Source: Malus domestica (Eukaryota > Streptophyta > Magnoliopsida > Rosales > Rosaceae). From it: a DNA stretch of 64,000 nucleotides. The notes beneath the pieces are model-generated. The model searched no databases. It was not told the DNA's origin and worked only from the letters and a program-made list of their open reading frames with translations. Positions within the stretch are counted from its first letter, which is position 1; every line of letters starts with the position of its first letter. Made by a program: the position numbers and the translations under genes. This document shows positions 10,500 through 37,036 of the stretch, in pieces. The stretch spans positions 33,472,001-33,536,000 of the forward strand of contig NC_091667.1 in assembly GCF_042453785.1 (NCBI RefSeq), read 5' to 3'.

Positions 10500-11738
10500 A
10501 TGGGTAAGGGAGGCCAATCCTGCAATGGCGTGGTTAGAGATACCAAACCTGTTGAGCAGGAAAACATGGCTGCCTGGCTCGTTGATGTTAACACCATCAG
10601 GATCCTACCTTTCAAGCTCCCCGATATTGGTATTTTACTTATCTCCCTACTTTTTAATTTCATCGCTAATTTTTTTTTCCTTTTTATTTTTTTATTTTCA
10701 GTTTTCATGGATGTATTGACTAACATGTTGCTCCCTGTTTTGTTTGGATTTCTTAATTTAGGACTCAATGATGTTCAAATTCGGATTAAGGCTGTCGGCA
10801 TTTGTGGAAGCGATGTTCACTACCTCAAGAACATGAAACTGGCGGATTTTGAGGTGAAAGAACCAATGGTGATCGGACATGAGTGTGCTGGGATCGTAGA
10901 AAAAGTTGGGAGCGACGTGAAGCATCTGGTTTCTGGTGACCGCGTGGCTGTAGAGCCCGGCATCAGCTGCTCACGGTGCCAGCAGTGCAAAGGAGGCCGC
11001 TACAATCTCTGCCCCGACATGAAGTTTTTCGCCACCCCACCGGTTCATGGTTCCTTGGCTAACCAGATTGTGCACCCTGCAGATCTGTGCTTTAAACTGC
11101 CCGAAAACGTGAGCTTGGAGGAAGGAGCAATGTGTGAGCCCTTGAGTGTTGGGGTTCACGCTTGTCGGCGAGCCAATGTTGGTCCCGAAACAACTGTTCT
11201 GATCGTCGGTGCAGGGCCGATTGGGCTGGTTTCCGTGCTCGCTGCTCGTGCTTTCGGAGCACCAAGAATTGTCATCGTAGATATGGATGATAAGCGTTTA
11301 GCCGTGGCCAAGTCTCTGGGAGCTGATGGAACCGTCAAAGTTTCAGCAAAAATGGAGGATTTAGATGACGAAGTTGCCAAGATTAAAGAAACCATGGGAG
11401 CCGAAGTTGATGTGACCTTCGACTGTGTGGGTTTCAACAAAACCATGTCTACGGGCCTCAATGCTACTCGTCCCGGCGGCAAAGTTTGCCTTGTAGGAAT
11501 GGGGCACAGCATGATGACAGTCCCTCTGACACCGGCTGCAGCCAGGGAGGTTGACGTGGTTGGAGTTTTCCGGTATAAGAACACATGGCCTCTTTGCCTT
11601 GAGTTTTTGAGAAGCGGGAAGATCGACGTGAAGCCGCTTATTACCCACCGGTTTGGATTTACCGAGAAGGAGGTGGAAGAAGCATTTGCAACCAGTGCTC
11701 GTGGGGGTGACGCCATTAAAGTCATGTTTAATCTATAG
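10500..11738 (+). CDS. SDH: NAD-dependent sorbitol dehydrogenase, copy A (2 exons)
   Basis: This cytosolic zinc enzyme of the medium-chain dehydrogenase family oxidises sorbitol to fructose with NAD+. In Rosaceae it uses imported sorbitol in sink organs. Exons are 10500-10629 and 10762-11738, giving 368 residues, the usual length. Visible are the catalytic-zinc motifs [17 protein letters not shown] and CEPLSVG, the structural-zinc cluster CSRCQQC...NLC, the Rossmann motif GAGPIGLV and the NAD-binding acidic end VDMDD. The single intron (132 bp, phase 1, donor TTG|GTATTT, acceptor TTTAG|GAC) is a multiple of three with no stop, so the gene also reads as one open frame of 412 codons. Introns found in copies B and C after SLANQ and inside AAAR are precisely absent. 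No defect is seen. Confidence 0.95.
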
Positions 11739-12214
11739 TAAATAAATCATTAAGTTTCTGAATTTTGGATTCGTCGAGAGGACAAGTTTTTGTGATGGTT
11801 TGGAAAATTGGAAGTCATCGTCTCGGATGAAGAATGGTCTTGTTTTTAAGTTCCGGGAAACTTGTTGATGTACAGAGACCATTGTATAGCTGTATTAGAT
11901 CTCGGCATGCACCACACTAGTAAATTCATTATTTAACATGAGTCCATCAATACATGTTAACTATGTGCGTACGTATGCATGTAACTAAATTGTCTTCAAT
12001 ATAAATCATTTTTCTGCCAAAGTTGTTTTTATTTGCTTGCATTTCTTTGGACTATCGATGAGTGTTACAGACACGCATCATGTACGTACAATCGGCCTAT
12101 AATCAAAGATAAACTAACTTGTCTATTCAAATCTTGCAACACAAGATGAAAATACTTCATTGCTTAAATTGCAAATTACTCTTTTCCTTTCTCTTTTTTT
12201 CACCTTAAGGCATA
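11739..12214 (+). other. 3' flank of SDH-A, homologous to the SDH-B 3' flank
   Basis: The sequence aligns by eye with 22642-23190 behind SDH-B: GAGAGGACAAGTT, GATGTACAGAG and CTCTTTTTTTCACC..AAGGCA occur in order. It holds the 3' UTR and no further gene. The homology shows that the duplication included downstream sequence. Confidence 0.65.
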
Positions 12215-13007
12215 GGGGTTGTTCGGGACGGGATCCCGAACCGAAACTCATATCCCAAATCTTGAACCAATCTATTTCGGGATGAAATTCCAAAAACCGA
12301 AAGTTTAGGATTCTCGAAAAAAATTTGGGATTTCGGTACGGTTCGGAATTGGCCATTTTCCGTGCAAAGATTTCCCACGGCGCCGACAGAGGTGGAGAAT
12401 AAGGGTGGAGGAGAGATTGAGAGACGAAGAAACAACAAGCGAGTCGTGGTGGCTGCATTGGCTGGGCGACGGAGAAATCAGACAGAACTCAGATGAGGGA
12501 GGGAGGGAGGGAGAGAGAGAGAGAGAATATCAGGGTTATGTATGAAAGCAACGTTGGTTTTGTATTGTGAAGGCGAAGTTGTCTTTGCATTACGTTTGAA
12601 AGTCAATATGCCTAGAGTCTAGGTGCTAGCAAAGAGGTGGAAGGCTTCAGACGTAATGATGATATCCAAGGTTTAGGAAGCTTTACGGAAGTGAGATGAT
12701 AGATGGGAGAGTATGAAGTTTTTGAGGAAGTGAGGTGACAGATAGTAACGAACTGTTGAGATTGAACCTCAACTAAATCCTATGGCCATTATTAATTCAA
12801 ATATACATAAAATTTATTATATTAATATATTGATCGGTTTGGTTTGAGAATACCGTACAAGGCCATATCAGATCCCAATCCCATACCAAAAATTTTCAGG
12901 ATCGGGTATCGAACTGTTTAGAATTTTTGGTTTGAGATGTTTTCGGTTCAGTTTCAGGATTATTTCGGTATAGTTTGGGATTTTCAGGATTTGTTTTTAC
13001 AGCCCTA
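12215..13007. mobile_element. Non-autonomous hAT-like element (MITE), 793 bp
   Basis: The left end reads TAGGGGTTGTTCGGGAC. The right end reads ...TTTTTACAGCCCTA, whose reverse complement is TAGGGCTGTAAAA. Sub-terminal regions at both ends are rich in GGGATTTTCGG/CGGTTTGG-like words typical of these hAT derivatives. A (GGGA)n(GA)n tract lies at 12494-12528. The same flanking sequence behind SDH-B (AAGGCA at about 23182-23187) lacks the insert, giving an empty-site comparison. The 8-bp target duplication is not clear (TTAAGGCA left, GACATTTC right). Confidence 0.75.
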
Positions 13008-16000
13008 GACATTTCCTTTTACTTTTTCTTATCACCCTAATACTTTTGTGTTAATGATGGTTGTCCAAATATTATTTTTGGTTGTTAATAGAATCCATAT
13101 CTCTTTTATGAAACGAAAAACAGTCAAAAAGAGCAAAGCCTTTGTAATCAGTTGGTGTCTTGAGTGAGCCAAAATATTTGCAACAAAGTTTACCTCACGC
13201 CAAATATAAATAGAAATGACGTGGCTATTCACATCAGATACCATCTAAAATGATGTAAAAATGTGTTATAAAAACATGGTATGAATAACATTACTTTTAA
13301 TTAGGATAGAAGCAGGCCAAGTGATTTTCAATTGGTTTTATAAAAATTTTAAATTTTAAACTCGTTAATACTTGTGCCACTTACTTGATTTACATGTTAG
13401 CGAAAACTAGCTCACATATGTGCCATGCTATACATTTTAGTAGAGTATTTGGCGAAAAAAGTTAAACAAGATAAAGTGTGACACAAAAGTTGAATTCATC
13501 GACTTAATGGCACTAAACAAGTTTCTAGCAGCATAATGAGATTCGACTTGTAGTTAAGAAGATATCAAATTAAGCCATCAATATTTTCATCTTATTAACT
13601 TACAAGAACCCTAAGTCTAACCATCTAGAAATTAAACATGACCCTTTCATTTTTTTTTGTTTGGACTGAATTAGTTGCCAACCGACAGGGATATAGCTCA
13701 AACCCCTGATCTCTTGAAAAATTTTAAGTGAGGTTTTGAGTTAATTTTCCGATATGAAACTTGAACTTTCGATCCACCACGCATGATCTCTAGAGATATT
13801 TTAGGGAACTTGTAGAAAATCATCAAAAATGTATTGTCATATACCCAATATATCAACAATATTTATACATTGACAATATCGACAAGGAACGTCTAGGAAC
13901 TTTGGGAGAGACAGTCAATTAACTTGTTTTTTTTTTTTTTGTCAATATGCTCTATGCATTGGTATTCCTTGTTGATATTATTAATAATATGTTAATAGTC
14001 CGTATTTATGTTGTTGATAATTTCCCAATATTGGATTTAAGAGGTTCCTCTTCAGCCCTCAGTCTTTCAAACCCAATCATCTTGATATAAATTGGTGTAA
14101 AATATTACGTAAATTAAAATAAAATTTTAATTATATGAGAATATACATAAAGGAGAGGAATATTTTTTAAGAGGGATTGAGATTTACTCTGAATCTCTGT
14201 GTCTAAAGTATATAGGCCGAGAAATTTAGACCACTTAATTTCAATTTTACGATCTTAATTAGCTTATTCTATTTACTCATTTCACAAAAACTCAAAAAGT
14301 TCAACGTCTCATAATGTTTTCTTTCTTTCTTGAACCGCGGAGACCTCTCAGTTGATCTTTCATTCACAAGGATTCGAAGTTGATCTTTCATTCTTTGCAA
14401 GAGGACCACTAAAACAATTTTCCTGATTTTTTATATTGCATACGCGTGTGTCTGACTGGACACCTTGTCGTGGCACTTCGTTATCCATTATTAACGTACC
14501 ACGGCTCTTTTGACTTTATTCGCTCTTGCACTTTATAAAAGGAAACTTCAGGATCGGTCGTTGCAACTCATGCCAACGGTCGCAAGATTCAATCCCACAT
14601 ATACGTGACGTAGGAATTAGTCAGTCGTCACCTACCTTGGACGCGTGCCAAAAACCCTAAGGTTTGCTGGCAACACAGATAGCACATCTCATGCATGGGC
14701 CTGGCCGCAGAGTGACCATCCAACTGTTGCTAAATAATTAATCTTTTATTTTATTTTTGGTCGGTTTCTGTTAGTTGATATATGGATAACAGGATTAATT
14801 ACTTCACTGATTGGCAAATAGATTTTATTAACCGACCAAAAATATAAATAATTCAGGGAGTTAAAGAAGTCCCATGAAAAAGAACAAAAAGAAAACTTGT
14901 AAAACAAGATTATTATTCGTGTCCCCCTACCTACTCCACTCAAACTTCTTGGCACCAATTCTTACCTACTCGACCCATAAAGGGGCAAAAGCATTCTTAC
15001 CTACTTGTTAGCTCCACCTACTCGATCGTTCGAGCAGGTTTTAGTAGGTTCTTTTGGGGGGATGCCTAGGCTAGGGTTTACTCGGACGCTAAGGGTAAAT
15101 GAAAATATATATGCAGCAACAATTAAAATTGTGTTAGGAATGTGCAAGAGGGCAACACAATCATGCTGTTAAAATGACAGTACTTTAAACTTATCATGCA
15201 TCATCATGTGTTTTTTAATGTTATTATCATCTTGTTCTGTCATCATGTGTTTTAATTTTTCCATACAAGTTTGCTTGCATTCAATTCTAATGTTTGGCGA
15301 CGAAAATGGAACAAAATATGTTTATAGTTACACTTTTTTCTGTCAACAATATTGTTTAGTTCAATGTTATGACAAACCACGAAGTAAAGGGAAGCAACCT
15401 CTCGATATAATCTCCAAAATTGATTGAATCTCATGAAGAAGTTGAGGTTTTCCCATAAAATTAATTGGTAATATGGTGAGTAATCTATTGACTACTTATA
15501 AGCACATGAAAAGCCCATCATTTCCCTGATGTGGGATTGACTCTCAACAATTTGATGTAAGGCCAAGTTATTTAGAATAAAATGAATAGGATGGTGCTAT
15601 TCACGCACCTATTTTTACATTCACACACTTCTTGTTTAATTTTGTCTGTTGATCATCTTTATTTTATTCAATCCAATAATAAAAAAATTTAAAAAAATAT
15701 GTAAAGTAAAAAAAAATGTAAATATCACCATCGAACTGAATATTCCAGATTCCACTTTGAGTAACAATAAACCTAACATGGGCACGACCCGACTTATATT
15801 CCAGATTCCACTTTGAGTAAACCCAAACCTATAACATGGCCCTAACATGGGCAAGATTAACAGCAACCTGTATTCATACTCAAACCTAGCTATTTCGTCA
15901 AACCGACATATTCAAACTTATTAATTGTTACAACGGTCTTCATTTGGATAACGTTTTATAGTTTCACTTTCAGCCTCCAAATATTTGGATAATCCAATTG

Positions 16001-16039
16001 GAAAATTCCTGCTAGTCTTGGGCAAACCGATGCACCGTC
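13008..16039. other. SDH-A/SDH-B spacer; part is paralogous to the SDH-C 3' flank
   Basis: I see no gene here. From 14880 to about 16040 several blocks match the flank behind SDH-C at 37670-38820: AATTCTTACCTACTTGTTAGCTC, then GGGGGATGCC...CCTAGGCTAG, then ATATTGTTTAGTTCAA, then TCACTTTCAGCCTCCA. A 24-bp sequence (TATTCCAGATTCCACTTTGA...) is repeated at about 15742 and 15796. The rest is AT-rich. Confidence 0.55.
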
Positions 16040-16735
16040 CAAGACGGCATGTGGTAGAAGCTTCTCTCCGCCAAGTGTGGAATGGACTAAGTGAATTGTG
16101 GATAACGCTAGAACTCAGGCGAAATTCAGTGTCAAACATGTGGGGGGTTTCTTCTTTGATCTAACTAAACCTAGTCATAGAAAGAGGTGTAATGACAATA
16201 TTTTTTTTTTTTTTTACAAACGATATTATTTACAAATGGAGGTGGGCTTAGCCTCATAATGAGCTAGCAATAATGTGGTTCAAATTCGTCTTTGGTGAGA
16301 AATGAACTAAAGACATTTTACTTACAAGTGAGAAGAACACTCTAGACTGTAATATTAAGTGGTTTATTTTTTAGTTTATACAAGATCTTTAGAGAAGGGG
16401 AATTGAAAACACATGAGTTCAATTACGAATAGATGTTTTAATCACTCGAATTACAAGACATCGATTATACTTTGAGCCGATTTTGGTTAGATCTGATGAT
16501 GATTTTCAACACCTCTTTAGCTCCAAGACGGCATGTGGTAGAAGCTTCTCTCCGCCAAGTGTGGAATGGACTAAGTAAATTGTGGATAACGCTAGGACTC
16601 AGGCGAAATTCAATGTCAAACATGTTTTTTTTTTTTTTTTTTTTTGGGGGGGGGTTCTTCTTTGATCTAAACCTGGTCATACTACGTAAATTGTGGATAA
16701 CGCTAGGACTCAGGCAAAATTCAGTGTCAAACATG
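16039..16735. repeat. Dispersed direct repeat, three copies (about 100, 103 and 55 bp)
   Basis: Copies at 16039-16140, 16522-16624 and 16683-16735 share AATTGTGGATAACGCTAG and end CAGTGTCAAACATGT (or CAATGTCAAACATGT). After each copy comes a T run then a G run: T1/G6 at copy 1, about T21/G9 at copy 2 (16625-16654), and about T15/G13 at copy 3 (16736-16763). A CTTCTTTGATCTAA tail follows each. The third copy is truncated at its left. Confidence 0.85.
16201..16362 (-). mobile_element. SINE, minus strand
   Basis: Read on the minus strand it starts CCACTTAATATTACAGTCTAG, has CTTCTCACTTGTAAGT and a worn TTAGTTCATTTCTC in the place of a Pol III B box (GGTTCGATTC type), then TTTGAACCACATTATTGCTAG. 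It ends AATAATATCGTTTGT followed by a poly(A) tract (the T run at 16201-16215 on plus). The tRNA-like head with a simple A tail marks a SINE. Two fuller relatives are at 16825 and 31403. Confidence 0.65.
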
Positions 16736-16824
16736 TTTTTTTTTTTTTTTGGGGGGGGGGGGGCTTTCTTCTTCGATCTAAACCTAGTCATAGAAAGAGG
16801 TATAATGACAATATTATTTTTTAG

Positions 16825-16987
16825 TTTTTTTTTTTTTGACAAATGATATTATTTATAGATGGGGGTGGGCTTAGTCTCACAATGAGCTAGCAATAATGTG
16901 GTTCAAATTCGCCTTTGGCAAGAAACGAAACAAAGACCTCTCATTTATAAGTGAGAGGAACACTACCAGATTGTAGTACTAAGTGAC
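16825..16987 (-). mobile_element. SINE, minus strand, same family
   Basis: Same organisation as the copy at 16201: GTCACTTAGTACTACAATC head, GAGAGGTCTTTGTTTCGTTTC box-B-like region, AACCACATTATTGCTAG body and a terminal A tract. This copy and the one at 16201 lie in neighbouring units of a local duplication that also includes the repeat at 16039-16735 and the TTAGTTTATACAAGATCTTTAG sequence after each. Confidence 0.65.
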
Positions 16988-17420
16988 TTATTTTTTTAGT
17001 TTATACAAGATCTTTAGAGAAGGGGGGTTGAAAGAATATGAGTTCAATTATGAATAGATGTTTTAATCACTCGAGTTACGAGACATCGCTTATACTTTAA
17101 GCCGATTTTGGCTAGATCTAATGTTGATTTTCAACAACTCTTTAGTGAACTTTTTTAAGATGAATTTTTCAGTTCTGGGAACATGGCTCGGTACACCAAG
17201 TGTAATAATAATATAATTGGTTGAAAACTTGAAGAAAAAAAAATTCAAGCAATTGTACCATTACTTGATGTACTTAACCGTGTCCTCTGCACTTGAAAAA
17301 TCTTTTTTTTTTTTAGTCGACACTTTGGTAGCCTTGCTAATTTAAGCTTTTCAGTGAATCTGGATTGTAGGTTTCAACCCCCAACCCAATATATCCTTGG
17401 TAGTCTTCTTGGTGACATTA
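16988..17420. other. Spacer with duplicated flank of the SINE
   Basis: Positions 16990-17150 repeat 16365-16510 (TACAAGATCTTTAGAGAAGGGG, then CGATTATACTTTGAGCCGATTTTGG). This confirms a local duplication of about 620 bp. No gene is seen. Confidence 0.6.
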
Positions 17421-18253
17421 GAGCAATTCCACCGGGAAAAAAATGTCCCAGCCCTCAGTCCAAAAAACAAGCTAGCCCTCAGTCCATTTGCTCCAGCCTG
17501 TGGAGTTGCCTGGCACCCAGCCCAGCACGTTTTGGACTGACCAAGAAGCTGGCCTGTTTCTCAGGCGCGTGCAACACAAGCGCGCAAGGCGCGAGTGGGT
17601 TTCAGGCTTTCCTGAAAATGTGTCAGCCCACTTGGGCTCAGCGACGTGGCGTTATGATAGCCGTTGGATTTCCAACGGCTAGTTTTTCTAGACCGTTGGA
17701 TTTCCAACGGTAAAAAAAATTTAAATTTTACTTTTAAAATAGACCGTCTGATCACAGATCAACGGTCTACGTTAATTAACTAAATTAAAATTTATTAAAA
17801 AATACAGAAAATTTTAAAAATTTTATTTATTTTTTCTATAAATACCTAACTCTCATCTTCCACCTTACACCACATTTCAATATTTTCTACACTTTCTACC
17901 AAAGCTTTCATATACTTTTTGTGTGAAAAAAAAAATACCAAAAAGCTTATGGTTGAAGAATAAAGTGTATTTGATGAGTTTATGTAATTTCATTTTAGTG
18001 TGTTTTTTTTTATAGTTTATTTGATGAGTATGTAATTTTATTTTAGTGTGTATTTTTTTTAAGTTTATTTGAAATTTTATCTGAAATTGGTTAAAAATCT
18101 TATCCAAAATAAACTTAAAAAAAAAACACCAAATAAATGCACTGGGTGCCAGCGCATTTTTTTAGGGGTGGAGATGCCTTGGCCTATTACTGTTCACTTG
18201 AGTGGATAAATGCGCTGGGTGCTGACGCAAAGTCCTTAGGGGTGGAATTGCTC
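17421..18253. mobile_element. Harbinger-like MITE, 833 bp, TTA target duplication
   Basis: The ends are an inverted repeat: GAGCAATTCCACC on the left and GGTGGAATTGCTC on the right. Both sides are flanked by TTA (17418-17420 and 18254-18256), the 3-bp target duplication of PIF/Harbinger elements. Related copies with the same ends are at 28574 and 32277. Inside are a repeated CCGTTGGATTTCCAACGG palindrome (17660-17710), GCTGGCACCCAG-type words shared with the 28574 copy, and AT-rich filler. No coding sequence is convincing. Confidence 0.8.
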
Positions 18254-18345
18254 TTAAGGGGCTGTCTTGGCCTAGAACAATGGCCAACTTTTTGTTAAGA
18301 CTTCTTTCGGATATGTGTGGAAAACAGTTGTGCTCAGAAACCCTT

Positions 18346-18687
18346 ATCAAATAATTTTAAAAAGAGTAATGCTAGGAAGACTAAATTTAGAAACTAAATT
18401 TTGGAAATTAAAGAACATGTAAGTTGATTATTGGTTTATTACAACGTTGATAGACATGCTTATTTTTATTTGTGACATATCATTTAGTTTGTAAATTTAA
18501 TCTCTAAATTTAATTTCTCTAATATTATTCTTTTTAAAAACGTAACAAAATTAAAGCACTTTGAGAAAAAGAAAAAAAAAATTCTTGAAGAAACACATGG
18601 TAAGAAAAGCACTCGGAATGACTCCTCCTCAGGAAACATTCAAGCAATGTCCGCTTTAAACAATAATTTATTATTTTCTGTAAGGAA
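18346..18687. repeat. 342-bp direct repeat, left copy, with nested 168-bp MITE
   Basis: This sequence recurs at 20649-20990 with the same length and only about six visible mismatches. It contains a small Mutator-type MITE at 18364-18531 (GAGTAATGCTAG / CTAATATTATTC ends) flanked by the 9-bp duplication TTTTAAAAA (18355-18363 and 18532-18540). The right copy carries the same MITE at the corresponding place, so the MITE is older than the duplication. Confidence 0.85.
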
Positions 18688-18924
18688 GAGGTATTCATCA
18701 ATTCCCCCCCTCAACTTGTGACTATTGGCCAATTTCCCCCCTCAACTTTAATTTTGGCCAATTTCCCCCCTCAACTCTCATAATTAGTCAATTTCCCCCC
18801 TCAACTTTAATTTGGCCAATTCCCCCCCTCAACTCTCATAATTAGTCATTTTGCACCCTACTATTAATTTTTTAATTTGATCATAATTAAACAAGTGTGT
18901 GTAAGAAACTAAATAAGATGTATG

Positions 18925-20990: not shown

Positions 20991-21073
20991 TTAGATAGTG
21001 TTTCAGGTTTGGCTTATCCAAATTTTATATAGGTGTACAAACCAACTTGACCAAATCTGACTATCAAGACTTC

Positions 21074-21080
21074 TATAAAT
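21074..21080 (+). promoter_or_regulatory. TATA box of SDH-B
   Basis: TATAAAT followed by ACCACACCCTAGCC, about 120 bp before the ATG at 21200. It matches the SDH-A core promoter (TATAAATACCACCCCGTAGCC). Less than 85 bp separates it from the transposon-associated direct repeat ending at 20990. Confidence 0.75.
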
Positions 21081-21199: not shown

Positions 21200-22641
21200 A
21201 TGGGTAAGGGAGGGCAATTGATTAACGAAGTGGGTAAGGAAGCCAAACCTATTAAGCAAGAAAACATGGCTGCTTGGCTTGTTGATGTCAACACCATCAG
21301 GATCCTACCTTTCCAGCTCCCCAGTATCGGTATTTACCTCTCTCCCTTCTTTTAATTCCATGGTTATTTCTTTCAGTTTTTAGTTTTCATCGTTTATATC
21401 GTTGCTCACGTATAGCTCCCTGTTTTCTTGGGATTTTTTAATTTTAGGACCCAATGATGTTCGGATTCGGATTAAGGCTGTCGGCATTTGTGGAAGCGAT
21501 GTTCACTACCTCAAGACAATGAAATGTGCGGATTTTGAGGTTAAGGAGCCAATGGTGATCGGACATGAATGTGCTGGGATCGTAGAAAAAGTTGGCAGCG
21601 AGGTGAAGCATCTGGTGCCCGGTGACCGCGTCGCGGTAGAACCTGGTATCAGCTGCTCACGGTGCCAGCAGTGCAGAGGAGGCCGCTACAATCTGTGCCC
21701 GGACATGAAGTTTTTCGCCACCCCACCGGTTCATGGTTCCTTGGCTAATCAGGTATTAATAGATACAATTAAAAAATTTCGACTTTCTTAAGCTTTGTGC
21801 CATATGAATTCTATAGGATTACGACCATCTAATAACCATTTCGTTTTAACAGATTGTGCATCCTGCGGATCTATGTTTTAAGCTGCCGGAGAACGTGAGC
21901 TTGGAGGAAGGGGCAATGTGCGAGCCCTTAAGTGTTGGGGTTCACGCTTGTCGTCGAGCCAATGTTGGTCCCGAAACAACTGTTCTGGTCATCGGAGCAG
22001 GGCCCATTGGTCTGGTTTCTGTTTTGGCCGCTCGTGCTTTTGGGGCACCAAGAATTGTCATTGTGGATATGGATGACCAGCGTCTAGCTATGGCAAAGTC
22101 TCTCGGCGCTGATGAAACCGTGAAAGTTTCGACAAAAATGGAGGACTTAGATGATGAAGTTGACAAGATTAAAAAGGCCATGAATTCCGAAGTGGATGTG
22201 ACCTTCGATTGTGTTGGTTTCAATAAAACCATGTCGACGGGTCTCAACGCCACTCGCCCCGGCGGTAAAGTCTGCCTTGTCGGAATGGGACACGGCATGA
22301 TGACTGTCCCTCTAACTCCAGCTGCTGCTAGGTATAAATTGTTTTCATTTCGTATAATTTCTCTTATAAGAATCGACCCCTAGCTGATCGTACATTAACA
22401 AATTATGTGATCTTATTTGATTAATTATTTTGTTGTGTTTGAACACAGGGAAGTTGATGTGGTTGGAGTTTTCCGGTACAAGAACACATGGCCACTTTGC
22501 CTCGATTTCTTGAGAACTGGGAAGATCGACGTGAAGCCGCTTATTACTCACCGGTTTGGATTCACCGAAAAGGAGGTGGAAGAAGCCTTTGCGACCAGTG
22601 CTCGTGGGGGTAACGCCATCAAAGTCATGTTTAATCTATAG
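21200..22641 (+). CDS. SDH: NAD-dependent sorbitol dehydrogenase, copy B (4 exons)
   Basis: Same reaction and family as copy A. Exons are 21200-21329, 21448-21752, 21853-22331 and 22449-22641, giving 368 residues. All three introns are GT-AG, in phases 1, 0 and 2. The start is the ATG of MGKGGQ, as in copy A; both copies share the segment [13 protein letters not shown]. The zinc ligand motifs ([24 protein letters not shown]...NLC, CEPLSVG), GAGPIGLV and VDMDD are intact. Copy B lacks the intron that copy C has after SDVHYLK but keeps the two downstream introns that copy A has lost. It appears functional. A and B are closer to each other than to C at the N-terminus. Confidence 0.95.
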
Positions 22642-23442: not shown

Positions 23443-23451
23443 TTGATTTTA

Positions 23452-25860: not shown

Positions 25861-25885
25861 GTCAAGTGAGCTATGATATACTTTG

Positions 25886-27425
25886 CTAGACAACTTTTGT
25901 ATGAACATTTACCAGTTGATCTTTAGACTTAACAAACTGCACGGAAATTAGTTCAGCTTCCAATTCCATTTCAACATGTTTAGTTCGATAATGTTGAACT
26001 GGATTGTGAGCAATGTCAATTGTAACCTTGTTATAACAATGTGACTTCATTGGTTTCCGTGGTCTAAAGCCCAAGTCGAAAGTAAATTTTGAACTCATAA
26101 CAACTCACAAATGCTATAAGACATACCTCGAAACTCTACCTCAGGGCTTGATTTGGCAACAACATTTTTTTCTTTGCTTCGCCCGGTAACTAGATTGCCT
26201 CCAACAAATGTGAAATAACCTAAAGTTGAACATTTTTCAGTGGTAAAACACGCCCAGTTTGCAATTGTATACCCGAAAACGTCCAAGCGACCATGTTTTG
26301 AGAACATAAGTCATTTCTCTAGAGCAGCCTTTAGGTATCTCAAAATGTGATTATCCGCACTACAATTCTAAATTCTAGGAGCATGCATGAACTGGCTAAC
26401 CACACTTACTGCATATGTAATATTTGAGATGATGTGTGCCAAATATATTAACCTTCCAACAAGACACTGATATTGTTCCTTATTGATTGGTGTTTGATCT
26501 TCTTACTTACCCAACATATGATTCAACTCTATAGATGTATCAGCAAGTTTGCAAGCAAGTATTCCAACTTATGTTAGCAATTTCATCACGTATTTCCGTG
26601 AGATAGGAAAAAAACAAAAACAAAAAAAACACCTTTCGGGGATATAGACACTTCCATCCCCAAGAAATACTTTAAGGGACCAAGGTCTTTCATCTTAAAC
26701 TCTTGAGACATATATGTTTGTAATGCAGCTCTTTCTTTAAGATCATGCCATGTCACCACCATGTCATCTGCATAAATAATCAATGCAATGCTTTTATCTT
26801 TCTTACATTTCAAAAATAATATATGGTAGGAATTACTTTGTATATACACAAAGGCCTTCATTAACTTAATCAATTTGTCAAACCATGCTCGTGGAGACTG
26901 TTTGAGGCTGTAGAGAAGCTTCTTTATTTTGCACACTTTAATTCTCAGAAGGCATATTACATCCTAGGGGAGGATGGATCCATGATTTTACAATTACTGA
27001 ATGAGTTCATGACTCGCAAACTCATCGTCCTTATCAGAACTCATAACCTAAATCTTACTCTATAACTGGGTACCCTCCTTTTTGTGGAACCTTTGAAACA
27101 TAGAACTCACTTTCCCTTTTGTCTTTCGTAGACAAATCCATGTTATGCGGGTGCCATCTTTTATAAAGGAAAGGAACCATCGAGCTCTTCTAGGATTAGG
27201 AATTTTTGCTAGACCCCATACATCTGAACGAACGAGCAAAAAGACTTTGTTGCTCGTATAATGCTTAAGGGAAACGGAACATGATGTCGTTTTGCTAACT
27301 CACATATGTCACATATAAAATCAACATTACTGAGATTTGTAAATAGTGAAGGAAATAACTTCTTAAGATAATCGAATGATGCATGCCCCAGCCTTTTGTG
27401 CCATAACCATATACTAGTTTATATT
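25886..27425 (-). pseudogene. Ty1/copia polyprotein relic with internal deletion
   Basis: Read on the minus strand from 27425: a GAG-pre-integrase segment (LWHKRLGHASFDYLKKLFP, then CDICELAKRHH) and the integrase start (SDVWGLAKIPNP, FIKDGTRITW). These are followed within about 160 bp by reverse transcriptase (LYSLKQSPRAWFDKL; YADDMV at 26780-26760; MKDLGPLKYFLGMEV). RNase H follows (DVFGYTIANWA, YFTFVGGNLVT, at 26280-26120), then the C-terminal tail (QLVNVHTKVV) near 25890. A normal element has well over 1 kb between integrase start and reverse transcriptase, so there is a large internal deletion besides frameshifts and stops. No LTRs were recognised. Confidence 0.85.
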
Positions 27426-28573: not shown

Positions 28574-29389
28574 GAGCAGTTCCACCGGAGGTGGAATAGC
28601 CCAGCACCCAGTCAAAAAACCAGGCTGGCACCCTGTCAATTCACTCCATCCCGTGAAATCGACTGGCACCCAGCCCAAGCCAGTCCACAAGCTGGCCTAA
28701 AATCGACAGACCTTGGGACTGGCCTATCTGACGTCAGCGTGGCGTCGAAGGAGAATCCGAGCACCGAGACAACGAGCGGTGAATCGCTCTGGAGCTCGTT
28801 CTGGAACTTGAGCTCGCGCTGGAGCGACCCGGAGTCCACGAGCTTGACGGCGACGTCTTGGCGAGTGTGTGGGATTATGCCGAAGAACACGGACCCGGAG
28901 CCGCCTTGGCTGAATCGGTGCGTCGAAGAGAACAAGTCGGTCGCTCGGCGGAGGACGGAGTAGGAGTACCGGTGGGGGGGCTTGGAGTTGGATTCCGGGG
29001 CAGTCCGTTTCTGGGTGATTTTTCGAAAGCAGACCAGGAGGAAGAGGAGGAGAGAGAAGGCGGTGGTGGTGGAGGCGGCGGCGAGAGGGTGGGGGAAGCG
29101 GCTGCTGACGCGGGGTTGAGGCTGAGGACTAGCTGCGGGCTATGGCGATGGGGAGTGAAGGAATTGGCGCATCGTGGGGACCAAAGACAGTCGGAGGAGT
29201 TGAAGGAGGAAGAAGAAGAAAGTGTTTATAATAAAAAATAATAATATTTTAATAAAATTGACTAGGCTATTTTTTTTTTAGGAGTGGAGATGCATTGGCC
29301 TATTACTGTTTATTGGGGTCTATTACTGTTTATTTGAGTGGATAAATGCGCTGGGTGCTGGCACAAAGTCCTTAGGGGTGGACTTGCTC
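28574..29389. mobile_element. Harbinger-like MITE carrying a host gene fragment, 816 bp
   Basis: The ends are GAGCAGTTCCACC and GGTGGACTTGCTC, flanked on both sides by TTA (28571-28573 and 29390-29392). It is the same family as the element at 17421: the sub-terminal words AGCACCCAG, GACTGGCACCCAGCCC and TGGGTGCTGGCACAAAG are shared. Unlike the AT-rich 17421 copy, its middle (28735-29220) is very GC-rich and is an acquired piece of a receptor-kinase gene, described separately. Confidence 0.8.
28735..29172 (-). pseudogene. Captured 5' fragment of a receptor-like kinase gene
   Basis: The minus strand, starting with an ATG at 29172, reads as one frame with a single TAG stop after about ten codons. 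It shows an Ala/Ser/Thr-rich segment, a hydrophobic stretch (AFSLLLFLLVC) followed by FRKITQKR (a membrane anchor with basic flank), a juxtamembrane linker (HRYSYSVLRRATD) and the kinase N-lobe: FSQGGSGSVFFGII as the glycine-rich loop and VAVKLVDS with the catalytic-type lysine. It ends in VVSVLGFSFD, before the catalytic loop. It therefore cannot be a working kinase. The fragment lies wholly inside a Harbinger-like MITE, so it was acquired by transduplication. The donor is a membrane receptor-like cytoplasmic-type kinase gene elsewhere in the genome. The exact subfamily is inference. Confidence 0.8.
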
Positions 29390-29559
29390 TTACAAGGGCA
29401 TGCGTTCTCTTGGAGAAGCATTAGACAAGGTGAGGGTCCACCCGCACGCGAAGGACCAAAGCCAAACAGCTCCATTTGATGCATACATTTTATGACGTTG
29501 GTGAATGTGTCATTGATTCTGAAAGGATGAAATGAATATGGAAGACTTCTCTTTGATTT

Positions 29560-29733
29560 GTGGGAGAGGATCTTTCCCTCATCTTTCTTCCATTCCTTTT
29601 TTTTTATACTTAAATAATTACGGTTAAGTCATGTAAATATCTTATGTTGATTTTTTATAAAGATAATAAAACAAAAAATAATATTTGAGAGGAGGAGAGA
29701 GAATGAATAGGAATAGGAGGGGAAAAAATCTTA
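29560..29733. mobile_element. Possible small MITE with purine/pyrimidine inverted ends
   Basis: The left end reads GGGAGAGGATCTTTCCCTCATC, and the right end GGAATAGGAGGGGAAAAAATC is an imperfect inverse. A related sequence is at 37441-37600. Ends and target duplication are not clear. Confidence 0.4.
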
Positions 29734-29764
29734 CGTCGAATTTGTGAAGCCATAATTAATTTAA

Positions 29765-31143
29765 GAGTAAATTACACAAAATTACTTCAACTATTAATTG
29801 AACCACAATCTCATACCTTATATTTTAAACATTGCAATGTCATACATTAACTTATGAATTCGTTGCAATGTCAAACTTCCGTTAAATTTTTAGTCAATTT
29901 AACTATTAAATGATGATGTGGCAAGATCAGGATCCACTCTTCCGCCAATTGGAATAAAAAAAAAATTTATTATTAATAAATTAAGAAAATTTTATTTTAT
30001 CAATTAAAATTATTTAATTACTTATTTTGAAAAATAATAATTTTCTATTACTGCTTCTGTTTTTTGGGGTAAATTTTTTTCTTCAAATTTTGTGTTATTT
30101 TATCAACTATTAATTTTCTATTCCGGCGACCTCCTTTATCTCTTTCTCTTCCTCCTTCTCTCACTCTAACCTCGAAATGGTGTCGATCGAAACCCGGCGA
30201 GCAGCCACCAATGAAATCGAAGGTTAGAATCTGAGATCTGGCGTTGACCATTCGCCTGCTACGATTGTAGTCACGTCGAGAGACATAGATAACTAGGTTT
30301 TGGGGTAGGTTTTGGGGATTGTGGTATTTGCTTGGCAAGTACCAACAGCTGGGGCTGTGTATTTCGAAAATTTCTCTTAATCTTTCGAATTGGTGTCGCC
30401 ACTCTTCAATTGATTTGTGGGTTTCCTCCATCTCTGTGAAAATGGTGATGGACAAAAGAAGGAGAGGTAGGTGAGGTTGGGCCACTGCTGCCTACCCAGT
30501 TGCTTCTCTTATCTTGTCTGTAAATAACATGAATTGCTGGATTTGGGATAACTCAGAAGTGCACCATCGCCAGAAACCTATACAAAGGCTTTTAACCTTT
30601 TCAATTAATGAATAATTAATAAAACACTTGTTGTCAACAAAAATCTTATGAAATTATCAGTTTAATCCTTTAATTAAAACTGAACATGAAGAAAAAATAT
30701 GGGACAGAAATGTAATTAAACAGAACTAAATTTTACTGTTTTTTTAAATCTCACATATATGTAATCCTAATATATTTCTAATTAAAAAATAAAAAATAAA
30801 AAAATTCTCACTCTCACATTCTCTATCACTCTCTTCCTCTCTCCTTCTATTTCAAAAATAAAAATAAAAAATTTTCTTACACACTTTGTGTGTGCTCATA
30901 TACTAGTATTTTTTAAAATAACTAATTAAAGTAAATTTTTTAATTTATTATTAATTAATTAATTTTTTATAGTGGGCCCTCTCCTGCCACATCATCATTT
31001 AACAACCAAATTAACAAAAAATTTAACAGATGTCTGACATTGCAAAGAATTCATAAGTTGAGGTATGACATTGCAATGTTTAAAACATAAGATATGATAT
31101 TATGGTTCGACTAATAATTAAGGTAGTTTTATGTAATTTACCA
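29765..31143. mobile_element. Mutator-like non-autonomous element, 1379 bp, 9-bp target duplication
   Basis: Terminal inverted repeats of about 190 bp are visible: the left begins GAGTAAATTACACAAAATTAC, and the right ends GTAATTTACCA with GACATTGCAATGTTTAAAAC in inverse order. TTAATTTAA flanks both sides exactly (29756-29764 and 31144-31152). The interior (30050-30480) is less AT-rich and has a 145-codon open frame on the minus strand with no recognisable domain. It may be acquired sequence. No MURA transposase is present. Confidence 0.85.
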
Positions 31144-31402
31144 TTAATTTAACTCTAAGAAATTGAAAAAATAAATCATAAAAACTACTAAAAAAATTAT
31201 TTTAAAAATTCAAAAAACTTACCAAGTTTACACTCTAAAAATCTACAAAGTTCAACACAACATGGCTGACCCTAAGATTTCAAAAGTCATGTGCTAAACT
31301 AAATCTAGAACCTGAATAATGCTAAGATTGTAATTTCATTTTAGTTGTACTAAATTGTAATAGGATTAAGAATTTCATACAAACAACTGCGCTAACAAAC
31401 AC

Positions 31403-31584
31403 TTTTTTTTTTTTTTTAACAAACGATTTTATTAACACTAAAGGAGTGAGGGATTGTGTTAAGCCTCACAATGGGCTTGCAATAATGTGGTTCAAATTTG
31501 TCTTTTGTGATAATCAAACTTAAGACCTCTCACTTACAAACTTACAAATGAAGAGGATTACCACTAAACTGTAGCATTAAGTGG
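31403..31584 (-). mobile_element. SINE, minus strand, best copy in window
   Basis: On the minus strand: GCCACTTAATGCTACAGTTTAGTGGTAATCC head (A-box-like TAGTGGT), then GTGAGAGGTCTTAAGTTTGATTATC (B-box-like), TTTGAACCACATTATTGCAAGCCC, GTTAATAAAATCGTTTGTT, and a terminal poly(A) (T run 31403-31417 on plus). The layout is that of a tRNA-derived SINE. Confidence 0.7.
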
Positions 31585-32276
31585 CTACAAACACATTTAA
31601 ATATATATACACATGCAAAAATGAAAAATCGAGGCCCTTCTGATTTGGGGGACATGTACAGTGACACCACTTGCAGTCCCTCAGGGCTGTTTCTGCAACA
31701 CACTACCAAGTTAAACATTTAAAATTACCCAAAAAGTTTACGACGGTAATAATATGTGGGATAAGACGAAGAAAACATTAAAAAAAAAAAACATTTGTGA
31801 ATATCAATCGCCCTTGTGCTTGGCCTTTTTCTTTCCAAACTGTTGGACTTGCACAAAAACAATTATTGTTTAGAGTGAAAAGTAAATACAATTTTATGAT
31901 ATAAAAATCATCATAACTCACTTTTACTTTTTGATTTTTCGAAAATTATATTAGTTGATCCTATATGTTCTCCTTTATCCAATAACAATTATTTCCAAAT
32001 ATGTTAGTTTTTGGGCACAACACTACATCTTAAATTATCTTAAATTGGGTTTAATAATTACTACTCATCTACTCACTCAACCACGAGCTGGTGATCCAGA
32101 AAAACGGATTACGATACTTCCTTAAAATTAAAAACTGGAGGTTTCGGATTCGAAACCCGCTACTGGTGTGGAAGCCAGACTTGTGGTTAGTGGGAGGCTG
32201 AAATGCCTCTGTGAGTCTTCCCAGCCGCCGGAAAAGGTGAATAATCATGGTTTACCATCAGTTGTCCCAATTTTTA
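31585..32276. other. Intergenic with a possible second SINE-like sequence
   Basis: At 32085-32240 the plus strand has ACCACGAGCTGGTGATCCAG, then GGATTCGAAACCC, a B-box-like word, and AAGCCAGACTTGTGGTTAGTGGGAGGC. This may be another tRNA-related SINE but no tail is clear. The remainder shows no gene. Confidence 0.35.
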
Positions 32277-32957
32277 AGAGTAAGTTCACCCCTCATTTAG
32301 GGGGTGGCCCAAAGCCTAAAAAAATAGGTTGGCACCTAAAAAATCCACTCCACCCCACAAAATAGGTCGGCCCAAAGTGGATGTCAGCTTTGAGCTCAAC
32401 ATATAATGGACTGAGCAAGGAACTAACCTACATGACGCCAGGTTGACGTCAGCCATGTAAATTTCTTGTTTTGCTGATGGCACGTGGGATAGAGTTCCAA
32501 CATTAAAAAAAGAAAGAAAGGAAAATGTCAGCATCTTATAGTGGGCCATGTGTCCACTTTTGGGCTCTTGGATTTCAACCTTTTTGAAATCTAACGGTCC
32601 AGATTGATTAACTTAATAAAAAAATTTAAAAATTGTTTAAAAATACAAAAAAAGTAAACAAATGTTTTTTAATATAAATATCTAACCATCTTCTACAAAA
32701 ATTGTACTTTCGGATAATGATACGTGGCAGGACAAGATTGGTTAAAAATCATATCCGAAATTAAAAATATTTTTTTAATTATTTTATAATAAAAAATTAA
32801 TAATATTTTAATAAGAATTAACTAGACTCTTGCCCATCTCATTTTTTAGGGGTGGAGATGTACTTGGCCAATTACTATTCATTGCAGTAAATTACTATTC
32901 ATTTGAGTAGATTAAATAGACTTTGGACCAACTCATTTTTTAAGGGTGTAATTGGTC
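32277..32957. mobile_element. Harbinger-like MITE, worn copy of the 17421/28574 family
   Basis: The left end AGAGTAAGTTCACCCC and right end GGGTGTAATTGGTC form a worn inverted repeat between TTA triplets (32274-32276 and 32958-32960). Interior words shared with the family include GGGGTGGAGATG...TTGGCC..ATTACT.TTCA, near 32865, and a sub-terminal second inverted end (GGGGGTGG at 32300). Confidence 0.65.
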
Positions 32958-32999
32958 TTAAAAAAAATATGCCCACTCACAAGGGATAAGGATCCTTGC

Positions 33000-33182
33000 T
33001 AGATCCTTTTCCTGGGGATCCTAAGGACCACGTGATCGTGACCTTTTATCGTATATTGTGTGGTCAGTTTTCGTTCGGTACTATTTATATTTAATTTTAA
33101 ATTTTAAATTTTGAAATAATTTCTGACCTCACGATGTATGATGAACGGTCACGATCAGTGAATTCCTAGCATTCCTAGCAAA
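33000..33182. mobile_element. Small repeat (MITE-like) with GGATCCT words
   Basis: It contains CCTGGGGATCCTAAGGACCA, GTACTATTTATATTTAATTTTAAA, GAAATAATTTCTGACC and CGATGTATGATGAACGG in order. The same order occurs at about 41005-41165 (GTATATTATATGATCA, AAATACTATTCATATTTAATTTTAAA, AAATAATTTCTAACC, CGATGTACGATGAATGG). Two related copies support a repeat family. Ends are imprecise. Confidence 0.5.
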
Positions 33183-33310
33183 AATGATCCGGCGAAGATC
33201 CATTTCCACTCACAAGTCCAATTGGATGCGGGGTCCACAATAAACGAATAATATGGACGGTTGCTTCGCTGATATGACTATGCATTACGTCACATCCACT
33301 CACCATTTCC

Positions 33311-33708
33311 TAAGGGTGGAAAAAAATACCAAAAATCCCAAACCGTACTGAAAAAATTCCGAAACCAAACCGAAAAAATATCAAACCGAAAATCTTGAAA
33401 ATTTTGGTACCGATCCCGACCTTTTCGGTACGGGAATCGGTCTCAAAATCTTATTGTTTTGGTATTCCCAAACTGAACTGAAGTTAACATATATATAGTT
33501 TTAGATATTATAAGTCGTTGGATTGGTTGAGAATTAATTTCAGCTGTTCATTCAAAATGAAACCCAACCTCACCTTCACCTTCACTCTCTGACCTCTCCG
33601 CCAAACTCTCTGACCTCACCTCCACCTTCACTTCCCTCCCTACTCCTATACTCCTTTCAGTTTAGACCCACAAATCTCTCTCTCTCTCTCTATCTCTCAG
33701 TTTAGACC

Positions 33709-33752
<44 letters not shown>

Positions 33753-34672
33753 TCCACTCTTTCACTCTATCACCCTTACCTTCACACTACATCCAGACTC
33801 CAGCCTTCCATTTTCTTTTTGCATTTGACAACTTCCTCTGCATTTGATAATCAATACAGCCACTTCTGCTTCCTTTTACTTCTCTCTTCATTAAGGTAAT
33901 ATTCTTGTCTTCATATGGTCATCTTGATGTGGTAAAGTCTGTTTGTGGCTTCAATTCGTTTTTAATTTGGGCATTTGAATTCTAGGGTTTTGGATTTGGG
34001 GGTTTTCAATTTCGTTTGAAATTTGGGATTTTTAATCATATGGTTCTTCTATAGTTTGTTTATTTCCTCCTCGAAGCTAGCAGACCCGAGCTTCTTCGCC
34101 TCCTCCTCGAACTCTCTCTGTGAAATAGGGACTTGCATGTTATCAAGCCCTGTAGTCGAAGAGAAAAAGTGCAAATGTTTATTGTTTCATAAATCTTTTT
34201 GCATAAGGGTTTGTGTTCTGCAATCTTCATTTAATTTGGCACTCTTCTTCAATAGTTTGTACTTTAATGGCAGCAGCTGCAATTTGTGTTTCCAACAACA
34301 TTTGCTAGCAAGGCAAGTTTAAATAAATTCATTTTTTTTATCAGTTCACGGTCTTAATTTTTGGAATTTTTAACCATGAAGCCTTCATAAAACATGGTGG
34401 ATTAGATTTGTTTTATTAGCAAGATACCATCCATATTTGAATTCTATGTTTCTTACATTCCCCTCTCTTTCTTTACAGGCATGAGAGAATTGAGGCCAAT
34501 GAGTTACAATTGTTTTGACGCATGAGCTCAAAACTATTTCGGAATTTCCGGTTTGTCTCGAAATCTCGAAAATTTGGTTTGGGATCGGTCTTGAAATTGG
34601 GATTTCCGAAAATTTCGATTTGGGAATCGGGGCAAGGGTTTCAGTTCGGTATCCCATACCGAACCAGCCCTA
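33311..34672. mobile_element. Non-autonomous hAT-like element, 1362 bp
   Basis: The left end TAAGGGTGGAAAAAAATACC and right end GGTATCCCATACCGAACCAGCCCTA (inverse TAGGGCTGGTTCGG) match the hAT-type ends seen at 12215 and 4842. The 8-bp flanks CCATTTCC (33303-33310) and CCAGTTCC (34673-34680) agree at 7 of 8 bases. Sub-terminal GGTTTCGG/TTTCGGTA words occur at both ends. The interior has a long CT microsatellite and no transposase. Confidence 0.8.
33676..33748. repeat. Imperfect CT microsatellite
   Basis: (CT)n is interrupted by a duplicated CAGTTTAGACCCACAAAT block at about 33658 and 33698. It lies inside the hAT-like element. Confidence 0.9.
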
Positions 34673-34680
34673 CCAGTTCC

Positions 34681-35138
34681 CTAAAAACTCCGCCGATTCC
34701 AACTTGCTAAATCCAACCCAAATATTTTGAACAGTTTAAAAATTAGATACTCTTGGGACGTAGGAAGTTAGGCTCCCCATGTCCATAAAGATTTCATGCA
34801 CATACAAAGTTATAGTACCACAAACTGTAACGTGAGAAAGTTAAGACAAATTATAAAATTTGATAATACATTATTAAATTAGAATACCTCCACATGCAGG
34901 AATCCTAAATGAATAAGGAGCTTTTCTACCGTAAAGAAAGGTAAAGACTACTACAATTTTAGATAATATGATTGGTTTGAAATACCTCCACATACGGAAA
35001 CCTAGATGAATAAGGAGTTTCCATTGAGATAATAATTCTCAAATCTTAATGAAATATGGATAGTGTAACAGAAGGAAGACTGTCCAAAAATAGTTAGGAT
35101 GATTACGGATAAACATAAAATAATGACCCTAAAAACAC
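34681..35138 (+). other. Upstream region of SDH-C
   Basis: No gene is seen. Two short similar blocks (ATACCTCCACATGCAGGAATCCTAAATGAATAAGGAG at about 34883 and ATACCTCCACATACGGAAACCTAGATGAATAAGGAG at about 34981) form a direct repeat in the promoter region. Confidence 0.55.
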
Positions 35139-35146
35139 TATATATA
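35139..35146 (+). promoter_or_regulatory. TATA box of SDH-C
   Basis: TATATATA followed by GCAGGGGC, about 165 bp upstream of the ATG at 35313. The surrounding sequence differs from the SDH-A/SDH-B core promoter. Confidence 0.6.
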
Positions 35147-35312
35147 GCAGGGGCAAACCAAAGACCAAATCATGGTATAGATTTATAAATTGCAAGAGCA
35201 GCAAGCGTATTTCCTCATTGGCTTGATATAATACTATAGCTAGGGCACGCTTTGTTCCATCATAAACGTAACATTTTTTATCAAACACACAAAAAAAGGA
35301 AGCACAAATAAT

Positions 35313-37036
35313 ATGGGGAGGGGAGGCAAGTCGGCTAACGGGGAAGCAAGAGAAGGAGGGGAACAAGAAAACAAGGCTGCATGGCTTATTGGTGTTAACA
35401 ACCTCAAGATCCAGACTTTCAATCTCCCGAGACTTGGTATACATCTATCTCACTCAATACCATAGATCTTTTAATTCGCAATTGTTTTTTTTCGTTTTTG
35501 GTTTTTAGTTTTTAGTTTTTAGTTTTCATGTCAAATTATGTATCCTCGTTTGGGCTGACATCTTGCTCCCTTGTTTTCTTGGGATTTGTTAATTTTAGGA
35601 CCCAATGATGTTCGAATTAAGATCAAGGCCGTAGGCATTTGTGGAAGCGACGTTCATTACCTCAAGGTTCTCATCCCTTCCATGTATTTTTCCCACTATT
35701 GATGTTTATTGATTGTGAACTCCCCTGTTCTAAAGTTTTTATTTTTGGAATTTTTTCAGACCATGAAGTGTGGGGATTATGAAGTTAAGGAGCCAATGGT
35801 GATTGGCCATGAGTGTGCTGGGATCGTAGATGCAGTCGGTAGCGAGGTGAAGCATCTGGTTTCTGGCGATCGCGTGGCTTTAGAGCCCGGCATCAGCTGC
35901 GCAAAGTGTCATCAGTGCAAAGGAGGCCGCTACAATCTTTGCCCTGACATGAAGTTTTTCGCCACCCCGCCAGTTCATGGTTCCTTGGCGAACCAGGTAA
36001 TATATTCCCACAACTACGAAATTTCAACTTCTATTATAAGCTTTGAACATAATGTTATAGTGTTTTATACTATGAACCCGTTTGATACTCATGTCGTTTT
36101 ACAGATTGTGCATCCTGCGGACTTGTGCTTTAAGCTTCCTGAGAATGTGAGCTTGGAGGAAGGGGCATTGTGTGAGCCCTTGAGTGTTGGGGTTCATGCT
36201 TGTCGGAGGGCCAATGTCACTCCGGAAACAACTGTTCTGATCATCGGAGCAGGGCCGATTGGGCTTGTTTCCGTGCTATCTGCTCGTGCTTTTGGGGCGC
36301 CAAGAATTGTCATTGTGGATATGGATGACCAGCGTCTAGCTATGGCAAAGTCTCTTGGTGCCGATGAAACCGTCAAAGTTTCAACAAAAGCTGAGGATTT
36401 GGATGACGAAGTTGCCAAGATTAAAAAAGCCATGAAGTCCGAAGTGGATGTGACCTTTGACTGTGTAGGTTTCAACAAAACCATGTCAACAGCTCTCGCC
36501 GCCACTGGTCCCGGCGGCAAGGTCTGCCTGGTCGGAATGGGACACAGCATGATGACTGTCCCTCTCACTTCTGCTTCTGCCAGGTATAATTTTAGCCCAC
36601 TAGGTGTCTTTATTTCGATAAGGATCGACCTCCTTCTTCAACAAAATTGTTAGGGAATTAATTGTAGCTAGGTCAAAGAGTGCGGTTGCAAATTTGGTCT
36701 TATTTTTCTTTCTTTTCTCGATAAGGATCGACCTCTTTCTTGTCCTACGTCAACAAATTTATTAGGGCACTATAAACCAAAGTGCGAGTTTACAAATTTT
36801 GGTCGTATCTAACATTTCCTCTTTTTGGTGTGTTTGAACACAGGGAGGTGGATGTGGTTGGAATTTTCCGATACAAGAATACGTGGCCGCTTTGCATCGA
36901 GTTTCTGAGAAGCGGGAAGATCGACGTGAAACCTCTTATTACGCACCGTTTCGGATTTTCCCAGAAGGAAGTGGAAGATGCCTTTGAGACCAGTGCTCGT
37001 GGAGGCAATGCTATTAAAGTCATGTTTAATTTGTAG
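35313..37036 (+). CDS. SDH: NAD-dependent sorbitol dehydrogenase, copy C (5 exons)
   Basis: Same enzyme family and reaction. Exons are 35313-35436, 35599-35666, 35760-35996, 36105-36583 and 36844-37036, giving 366 residues. The four GT-AG introns are in phases 1, 0, 0 and 2. The extra intron, relative to copy B, lies directly after SDVHYLK. The N-terminus diverges from the other two ([11 protein letters not shown]...[13 protein letters not shown]). Intact motifs are [24 protein letters not shown]...[18 protein letters not shown] and VDMDD. No defect is visible. With most introns and the most distinct promoter, it probably keeps the ancestral structure. Confidence 0.93.

Follow-up and report, generated by a model that had tools for sequence, protein, structure and literature searches.

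How three neighbouring genes of one family came to carry one, three and four introns is the question raised by a 64,000-nucleotide stretch of the apple (Malus domestica) genome, in which three sorbitol dehydrogenase (SDH) genes, A, B and C, follow one another on the forward strand. This stretch (C7:33472001-33536000), hereafter the window, had been read in an earlier note as a case of graded intron loss in two steps within one array, through recombination of the gene with its own complementary DNA (cDNA). Using an intron map and a tree of the 15 SDH genes located in this genome, we found that exact, stepwise intron loss is almost certain, while the placement of the losses of introns 3 and 4 on the tree is less firm.

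Gene A (7A; 10500..11738, + strand, 368 aa) consists of two exons (10500-10629, 10762-11738) separated by intron 1 only (10630..10761; 132 bp, phase 1, GT-AG), whose sequence is homologous to that of the first introns of B and C. Gene B (7B; 21200..22641, + strand, 368 aa) has four exons (21200-21329, 21448-21752, 21853-22331, 22449-22641) and introns 1 (21330..21447; 118 bp, phase 1), 3 (21753..21852; 100 bp, phase 0) and 4 (22332..22448; 117 bp, phase 2), the last two resembling introns 3 and 4 of C. Gene C (7C; 35313..37036, + strand, 366 aa) has five exons (35313-35436, 35599-35666, 35760-35996, 36105-36583, 36844-37036) and all of introns 1 (35437..35598; 162 bp, phase 1), 2 (35667..35759; 93 bp, phase 0), 3 (35997..36104; 108 bp, phase 0) and 4 (36584..36843; 260 bp, phase 2), the last of which is lengthened by an imperfect internal repeat (36607-36655 / 36711-36767). 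Exon coordinates thus bear out the intron counts (1, 3 and 4) and phases (1, 0, 0, 2) given in the earlier note; introns occupy identical positions in the three genes, after coding nucleotides 130, 198, 435 and 914 (A/B numbering), and all eight are GT-AG. The coding sequences (CDS) measure 1107, 1107 and 1101 nt in A, B and C, with intact frames and a single, terminal stop in each. At the sites of the missing introns the junctions are exact, as had been claimed, with no base gained or lost: in A after CDS nt 198 (10829..10830, CTCAAG^AACATG; intron 2), 435 (11066..11067, AACCAG^ATTGTG; intron 3) and 914 (11545..11546, GCCAG^GGAGGT; intron 4), and in B at the intron 2 site (21515..21516, CTCAAG^ACAATG). 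Local alignments of introns 1, 3 and 4 between B and C each scored above 300 dinucleotide shuffles, by a narrow margin for intron 3 (score 29; best shuffle 27).

The protein of gene A contains the Pfam domains ADH_N and ADH_zinc_N, which place it among the zinc-type medium-chain dehydrogenases (the zinc MDR family), and the closest solved chains to the protein of gene B are a ketose reductase, which we take to be from whitefly, and sorbitol dehydrogenases, presumably of animal origin. Judged from these comparisons, A, B and C are sorbitol dehydrogenase genes of the zinc MDR family; their synonymous distances are 0.48 (A-B), 0.66 (A-C) and 0.69 (B-C).

Protein and DNA (blastn) searches of the genome (651 Mb, 19 contigs) located 14 SDH genes in two arrays, six on C7 (7a, 7b, 7c, A, B, C) and eight on C1 (1a-1h), together with one distant gene, 1z, at C1:22.29 Mb. 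Introns were mapped by splice-aware alignment of the 15 genes, two splice sites being fixed by hand: intron 3 of 1h, a GC-AG intron that the alignment program had split in two, and intron 4 of 1z, where 1z is three codons shorter. Four introns are present in 7a, 1a, 7C and 1h, three (1, 3 and 4) in 7B alone, two (1 and 3) in 1e, 1f and 1g, which lack the intron 4 of their counterpart 7B, and only intron 1 in 7b, 7c, 7A, 1b, 1c and 1d. The distant 1z carries introns 1-4 and one extra intron after codon 242; intron 2 of gene C has the same position in 7a, 1a, 1h and 1z, and intron 1 is kept in 15/15 genes. Blastn with exon 2 of gene A returned 45 pieces (such counts being lower bounds), all accounted for, by our own count, by the 15 SDH genes together with three fragments of the 5' part and seven of exon 4. 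In intron carriers these matches break near query nt 67/68 (intron 2), 303/305 (intron 3) and 782/785 (intron 4), boundaries that agree independently with the intron map, and a continuous match over the sites of introns 3 and 4 is seen in the six one-intron array genes only. Among array genes, intron 2 measures 91-210 bp, intron 3 85-116 bp and intron 4 117-374 bp, and intron 1 of the three- and four-intron genes 118-162 bp.

The intron pattern therefore extends beyond three genes and beyond one array. Two local features of the arrays were also observed: gene 7c has a one-base frame break near codon 102 and is otherwise a complete one-intron gene, being either a pseudogene or the product of an assembly error, and a solitary exon-1-like fragment (C1:29326622-29326753) lies between 1e and 1f.

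Intron counts published for 14 SDH genes of the pear Pyrus pyrifolia (Dai et al. 2015, PMC4490486) follow the same series. By consecutive gene number, PpySDH1-6 have 4, 1, 1, 1, 3 and 4 introns, identical to the apple order 7a, 7b, 7c, A, B, C, and PpySDH15 down to 8 have 4, 1, 1, 1, 2, 2, 2 and 5, equal to the apple C1 array (4, 1, 1, 1, 2, 2, 2, 4) except for the last, with 5 against 4 in 1h; this is a comparison of intron counts rather than positions, with orthology taken from gene order. PpySDH7, which is not expressed and has no stated structure, was omitted from the series, and the one-intron genes, called 'the remaining six' in that paper, would be PpySDH2, 3, 4, 12, 13 and 14. The GC-AG intron 3 of 1h could account for the five-intron annotation of PpySDH8. 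Since the same four positions recur across 15 genes, with one extra intron in one gene, and since the pear counts match, chance or assembly error is an unlikely source of the pattern seen in A, B and C. In the parts of the pear paper that were covered, no inference of intron loss is drawn from these counts.

The direction of change was read from a tree of 1107 columns rooted on 1z, in which 24 columns of 1z around intron 4 were masked and the frame break of 7c was treated as a gap. From the root, (7C,1h) branch first, then (7a,1a) (84/86), then the ten genes without intron 2 (100/99), which split into B with 1e-g (87/90) and the six one-intron genes (95/98). The absence of intron 2 in the lineages of both A and B is thus traced to one shared loss, as the earlier note had proposed, and the fewest changes on the tree are one for intron 2, one for intron 3 and two for intron 4. 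A different direction, with gain of introns 2-4 in C, in B and in the genes at the array ends, would need repeated insertions at identical sites; no evidence supporting it was found, and 1z carries all four introns at the same positions and phases, which argues for loss, so that this version of events is scarcely credible and intron gain in general, judged from this single genome, very unlikely. When animal and bacterial SDH proteins were added, 1z still fell outside the array genes (91/96), a placement to be read with a warning about long branches. Plant SDH outgroups were also sought beyond this genome, genome_contigs yielding three bacterial genes and viral_contigs none. An early rooting of A, B and C on animal and bacterial proteins, in which five outgroups matched C at 7, 7, 7, 7 and 4 of the sites where A equals B (0-3 for the other pairings), was superseded by the 15-gene tree.

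The further claim that A had also lost introns 3 and 4 holds on the whole CDS, where its clade receives 95/98, but this clade is not recovered from exons 4-5 alone. The tree of exons 1-3 again groups the six one-intron genes (95/97), with the two four-intron pairs swapping order (76/64). Three results tell against the placement of these losses: in the exons 4-5 tree, B's group comes to lie amid the one-intron genes, though supports are weak (56/73); in the tree of the second half of exon 4 plus exon 5 the six are split by B's group, again weakly (62/85); and a tree in which the nine genes lacking intron 4 form one clade is not rejected by the CDS alone (approximately unbiased (AU) test, p = 0.145). 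As the exons 4-5 trees fail to group the six, support for introns 3 and 4 having each gone once comes from the whole CDS and from exons 1-3.

The ages of the losses follow from counterparts across the two arrays. Synonymous divergence (dS) is 0.19 for 7a-1a, 0.21 for 7C-1h, 0.26 for 7A-1d, 0.27 for 7b-1b and 0.29 for 7B against 1e, 1f and 1g, and flanking sequences match best between such counterparts. The losses seen in A and B consequently predate the duplication from which the separate C7 and C1 arrays arose, presumably the Maleae genome duplication. The flanks of 7B match those of 1e-g at 147-196 bits upstream and 358-375 bits downstream, against 0-76 and 0-184 bits for the six one-intron genes; given this far better match, with which dS agrees, losses of intron 4 were counted as two despite the AU result. 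Intron 4 thus appears, from flanks and divergence, to have been lost again on C1, after the array duplication and before 1g split from 1e and 1f (dS of 1g against 1e/1f, 0.15-0.16). The notion of two steps within one array accordingly gives way to two losses that predate the arrays' separation and a third, of intron 4, in the C1 counterparts of B.

This second loss could instead have been copied into 1e, 1f and 1g from an adjacent one-intron gene by ectopic gene conversion, so that one loss spread through the array. The putative donors do adjoin; in the second half of exon 4 (nt 676-912) 1e differs from 1c at 9/56 synonymous sites and from its counterpart 7B at 16/55, 1c and 7B differing by 18, and the trees of exons 4-5 intermix B's group with the one-intron genes. 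However, at nt 903 an A is common to 1e-g and 7B, unlike all six one-intron genes, and at nt 960 an A is common to the same four against all other genes. These B-type bases confine any converted tract over the junction (nt 914) to nt 904-959, a stretch that none of the one-intron genes matches in full. In a run test of 91 pairs, the longest identity runs of two pairs were reached by 0/1000 shuffles, but by 0.3% of 20,000 when six pairs were re-run, which fails correction for 91, and neither of these two runs covers the intron 4 site. We therefore regard spread by conversion as unlikely, although sequence exchange among neighbours in exon 4, itself unproved, would explain the discordant part trees. 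Gene 1c (C1:29301178-29302413) is likely, from its flanking sequences, to be a product of unequal crossing-over between neighbours, its upstream flank being like that of A and 1d and its downstream flank like that of 7b and 1b.

Conversion among A, B and C themselves, which the earlier note had suggested looking for in the synonymous divergence of exons, was not retained. A-B divergence is uneven across exons (chi-square p = 0.019), with exon 2 at the low end and exon 4 at the high end, but the true counterpart of A is 1d; for A-C and B-C the corresponding p values are 0.14 and 0.31. The longest A-B identity run is not unusual (p = 0.36; 0.12 in a re-run), and a run that B and C have in common in exon 4, with p = 0.0013 in a set of three tests and 0.006 in a set of 91 pairs, was not counted as shown.

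Map and tree together support the following history. The ancestral SDH gene carried introns 1-4; an exact removal of intron 2 took place in the ancestor of the ten genes of the A and B lineages, and one of introns 3 and 4, placed less firmly, on the stem leading to the six one-intron genes, both steps preceding the array duplication; after it, the C1 counterparts of B lost intron 4 independently. The agent may have been recombination of a gene with reverse-transcribed, spliced mRNA, its own or that of a close sister, through short tracts on separate occasions. We infer that such cDNA recombination is the likeliest single process for the losses, at roughly even confidence; it is preferred because all losses are exact, because the neighbouring introns 3 and 4 disappeared on one short branch and because the pear one-intron counterparts are very highly expressed. 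Exactness, adjacency and high expression are the traits associated with the reverse-transcription model (PMC3652778, PMC4256211, parts covered). The branch in question measures 0.018 changes per site, and the chance that a second loss joins the first on it independently is 0.034. Retention of the 5'-most intron, intron 1, in 15/15 genes also counts in favour of cDNA recombination.

In pear, where expression has been published for fruit and tissues, the six one-intron genes account for 92.4% of fruit SDH expression (reads per kilobase per million, RPKM), the other eight expressed genes making up 7.6% (summed from Table 3 of PMC4490486, within the parts covered; Mann-Whitney p = 0.0047, although the genes are related, so that this is closer to one clade-level contrast than to 14 points). 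These values run against the idea that losing introns 2-4 reduced expression, which the earlier note had raised as a loss of splicing-dependent enhancement.

Several observations weigh against recombination with cDNA. When four losses are placed at random, at least one pair of neighbours falls on a common branch in 11.6% of simulations, which makes the joint loss of introns 3 and 4 weak evidence, and the branch carrying that joint loss is missing from the exon 4-5 trees. Intron 2 was lost singly, between two kept introns, whereas a 3' cDNA tract predicts otherwise, and intron 4 was lost singly in the C1 counterparts of B. Four random losses spare intron 1 in 28% of cases and the first intron to be lost was the internal intron 2; the 3' weighting that had been claimed is not significant, and no 3' bias of loss was reported in grasses (PMC4256211, parts covered). 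There was no processed SDH copy among the 45 blastn pieces (a lower bound) matching exon 2 of gene A, while a link between intron loss and processed copies has been reported for rodents (PMC3652778, parts covered). Finally, recombination between gene and cDNA, as originally proposed, is a possible rather than a demonstrated mechanism: splice-site microhomology, 2-4 bp long, is present at every lost intron and also allows exact deletion.

In the latter process, exact genomic deletions would have removed the introns one by one, each after a double-strand break repaired via the short repeat at the splice sites (AG or CAG ahead of the donor, CAG ahead of the acceptor). Microhomology amounts to 2 bp for intron 2, 3 bp for intron 3 (5 in 1z) and 3-4 bp for intron 4, and it is intron 4, with the most microhomology in array genes, that was lost twice, and intron 2 that went singly; end joining of this kind was also favoured for a similar case, ABCB1, in the parts covered of PMC5716013. 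Against this, the kept intron 1 has 2 bp in 15/15 genes, equal to the lost intron 2, so that microhomology does not discriminate; four separate exact events would be required, two of them on one short branch (0.034, conditional); and the lost introns are not consistently short relative to intron 1. Separate deletions are accordingly a serious candidate, if a somewhat improbable one.

A single 5' intron retained, with the others missing exactly, would also be expected if A's clade had begun as a semi-processed retrogene, that is, a partly spliced mRNA that was reverse-transcribed and inserted, an origin reportedly proposed for rodent insulin 1. Yet A's clade lies on the same strand and in the same array, A and B are alike from the TATA-like motif onwards (upstream of a likely transcript start) and just past the stop, and A and 1d align over ~720 bp upstream. 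This shared promoter-side and downstream sequence disfavours a retrogene, which we consider highly improbable.

Under cDNA recombination, the retention of intron 1 may reflect how rarely cDNA extends to the 5' end, or else a need for intron 1 itself. Unusual conservation of intron 1 was considered and dropped, its identity between homoeologues (81-91%) being not above that of introns 2-4 (85-90%), so that no constraint is apparent, although its last ~20 bases closely resemble one another across the 15 genes. It is tempting, if rather doubtful for now, to regard the Maleae SDH arrays as a hotspot where cDNA has repeatedly served as template for intron loss, sustained by extreme expression, with intron-poor copies having come to supply most of the enzyme and intron 1 being held by function; if so, these arrays would preserve every stage (4, 3, 2 and 1 introns), along with homoeologous genes one intron apart.

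Dispersed SDH fragments were also found. Three of ~460 bp, on C13 (L024), C17 (L025) and C16 (L026), are 91-93% identical to 1b over exon 1, intron 1 and the part that follows up to about residue 130, where all three end; since intron 1 is kept, the template was DNA, and a mobile element perhaps carried the copies. A piece of exon 4 occurs in seven copies (L027, L028, L029, C16:37089802, C6:22076189, C4:28008298 and C5:46741327), with gene 1a as the best match in the three copies compared; in L027 and L028 the similarity ends no more than one base from the splice junction of exon 4, as would be expected if a spliced transcript had been captured. Elsewhere in the window, parts of a hAT-type transposase (dimerisation and RNase-H-like regions, BED finger) occupy separate open frames at 491-1711 and 2122-2817 (- strand), and a Copia-type reverse transcriptase fragment (RVT_2; 26586-26963, - strand) lies between B and C. 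On the far side of C there are open frames with a CCCH zinc finger (45369-45890, - strand) and a protein kinase domain (53215-53883, + strand).

The SDH series is a real, well-ordered set of exact and partly recurrent losses, older and wider than three genes suggest. Exact intron loss is well known as a kind of event. Plant SDH classes I and II and the tandem expansion of SDH on apple chromosomes 1 and 7 have been described for the same gene family and the same chromosomes (PMC4404067), in a paper whose main text lacks the words intron and exon, and in the literature searched, which was covered partially, we found no published reading of the pear intron counts as stepwise loss. Because the duplication between the arrays can be dated, and because B differs from its homoeologues 1e, 1f and 1g by a single intron, these arrays offer a convenient natural test of the process of intron loss and of its effects on expression, in the predominant pathway of sugar use in apple and pear. 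Among known systems, angiosperm ABCB1 (PMC5716013) resembles SDH in its range of one to nine introns, in exact and partly parallel losses and in one rarely lost intron, and intron loss in grasses (PMC4256211) resembles it in exact, adjacent and recurrent losses, with loss commoner than gain. In the parts covered, both studies compare orthologues between species, the former across species of one gene with end joining favoured, the latter in a genome-wide survey without 3' bias, whereas the SDH genes are tandem paralogues of one genome, in which four stages of the series adjoin.

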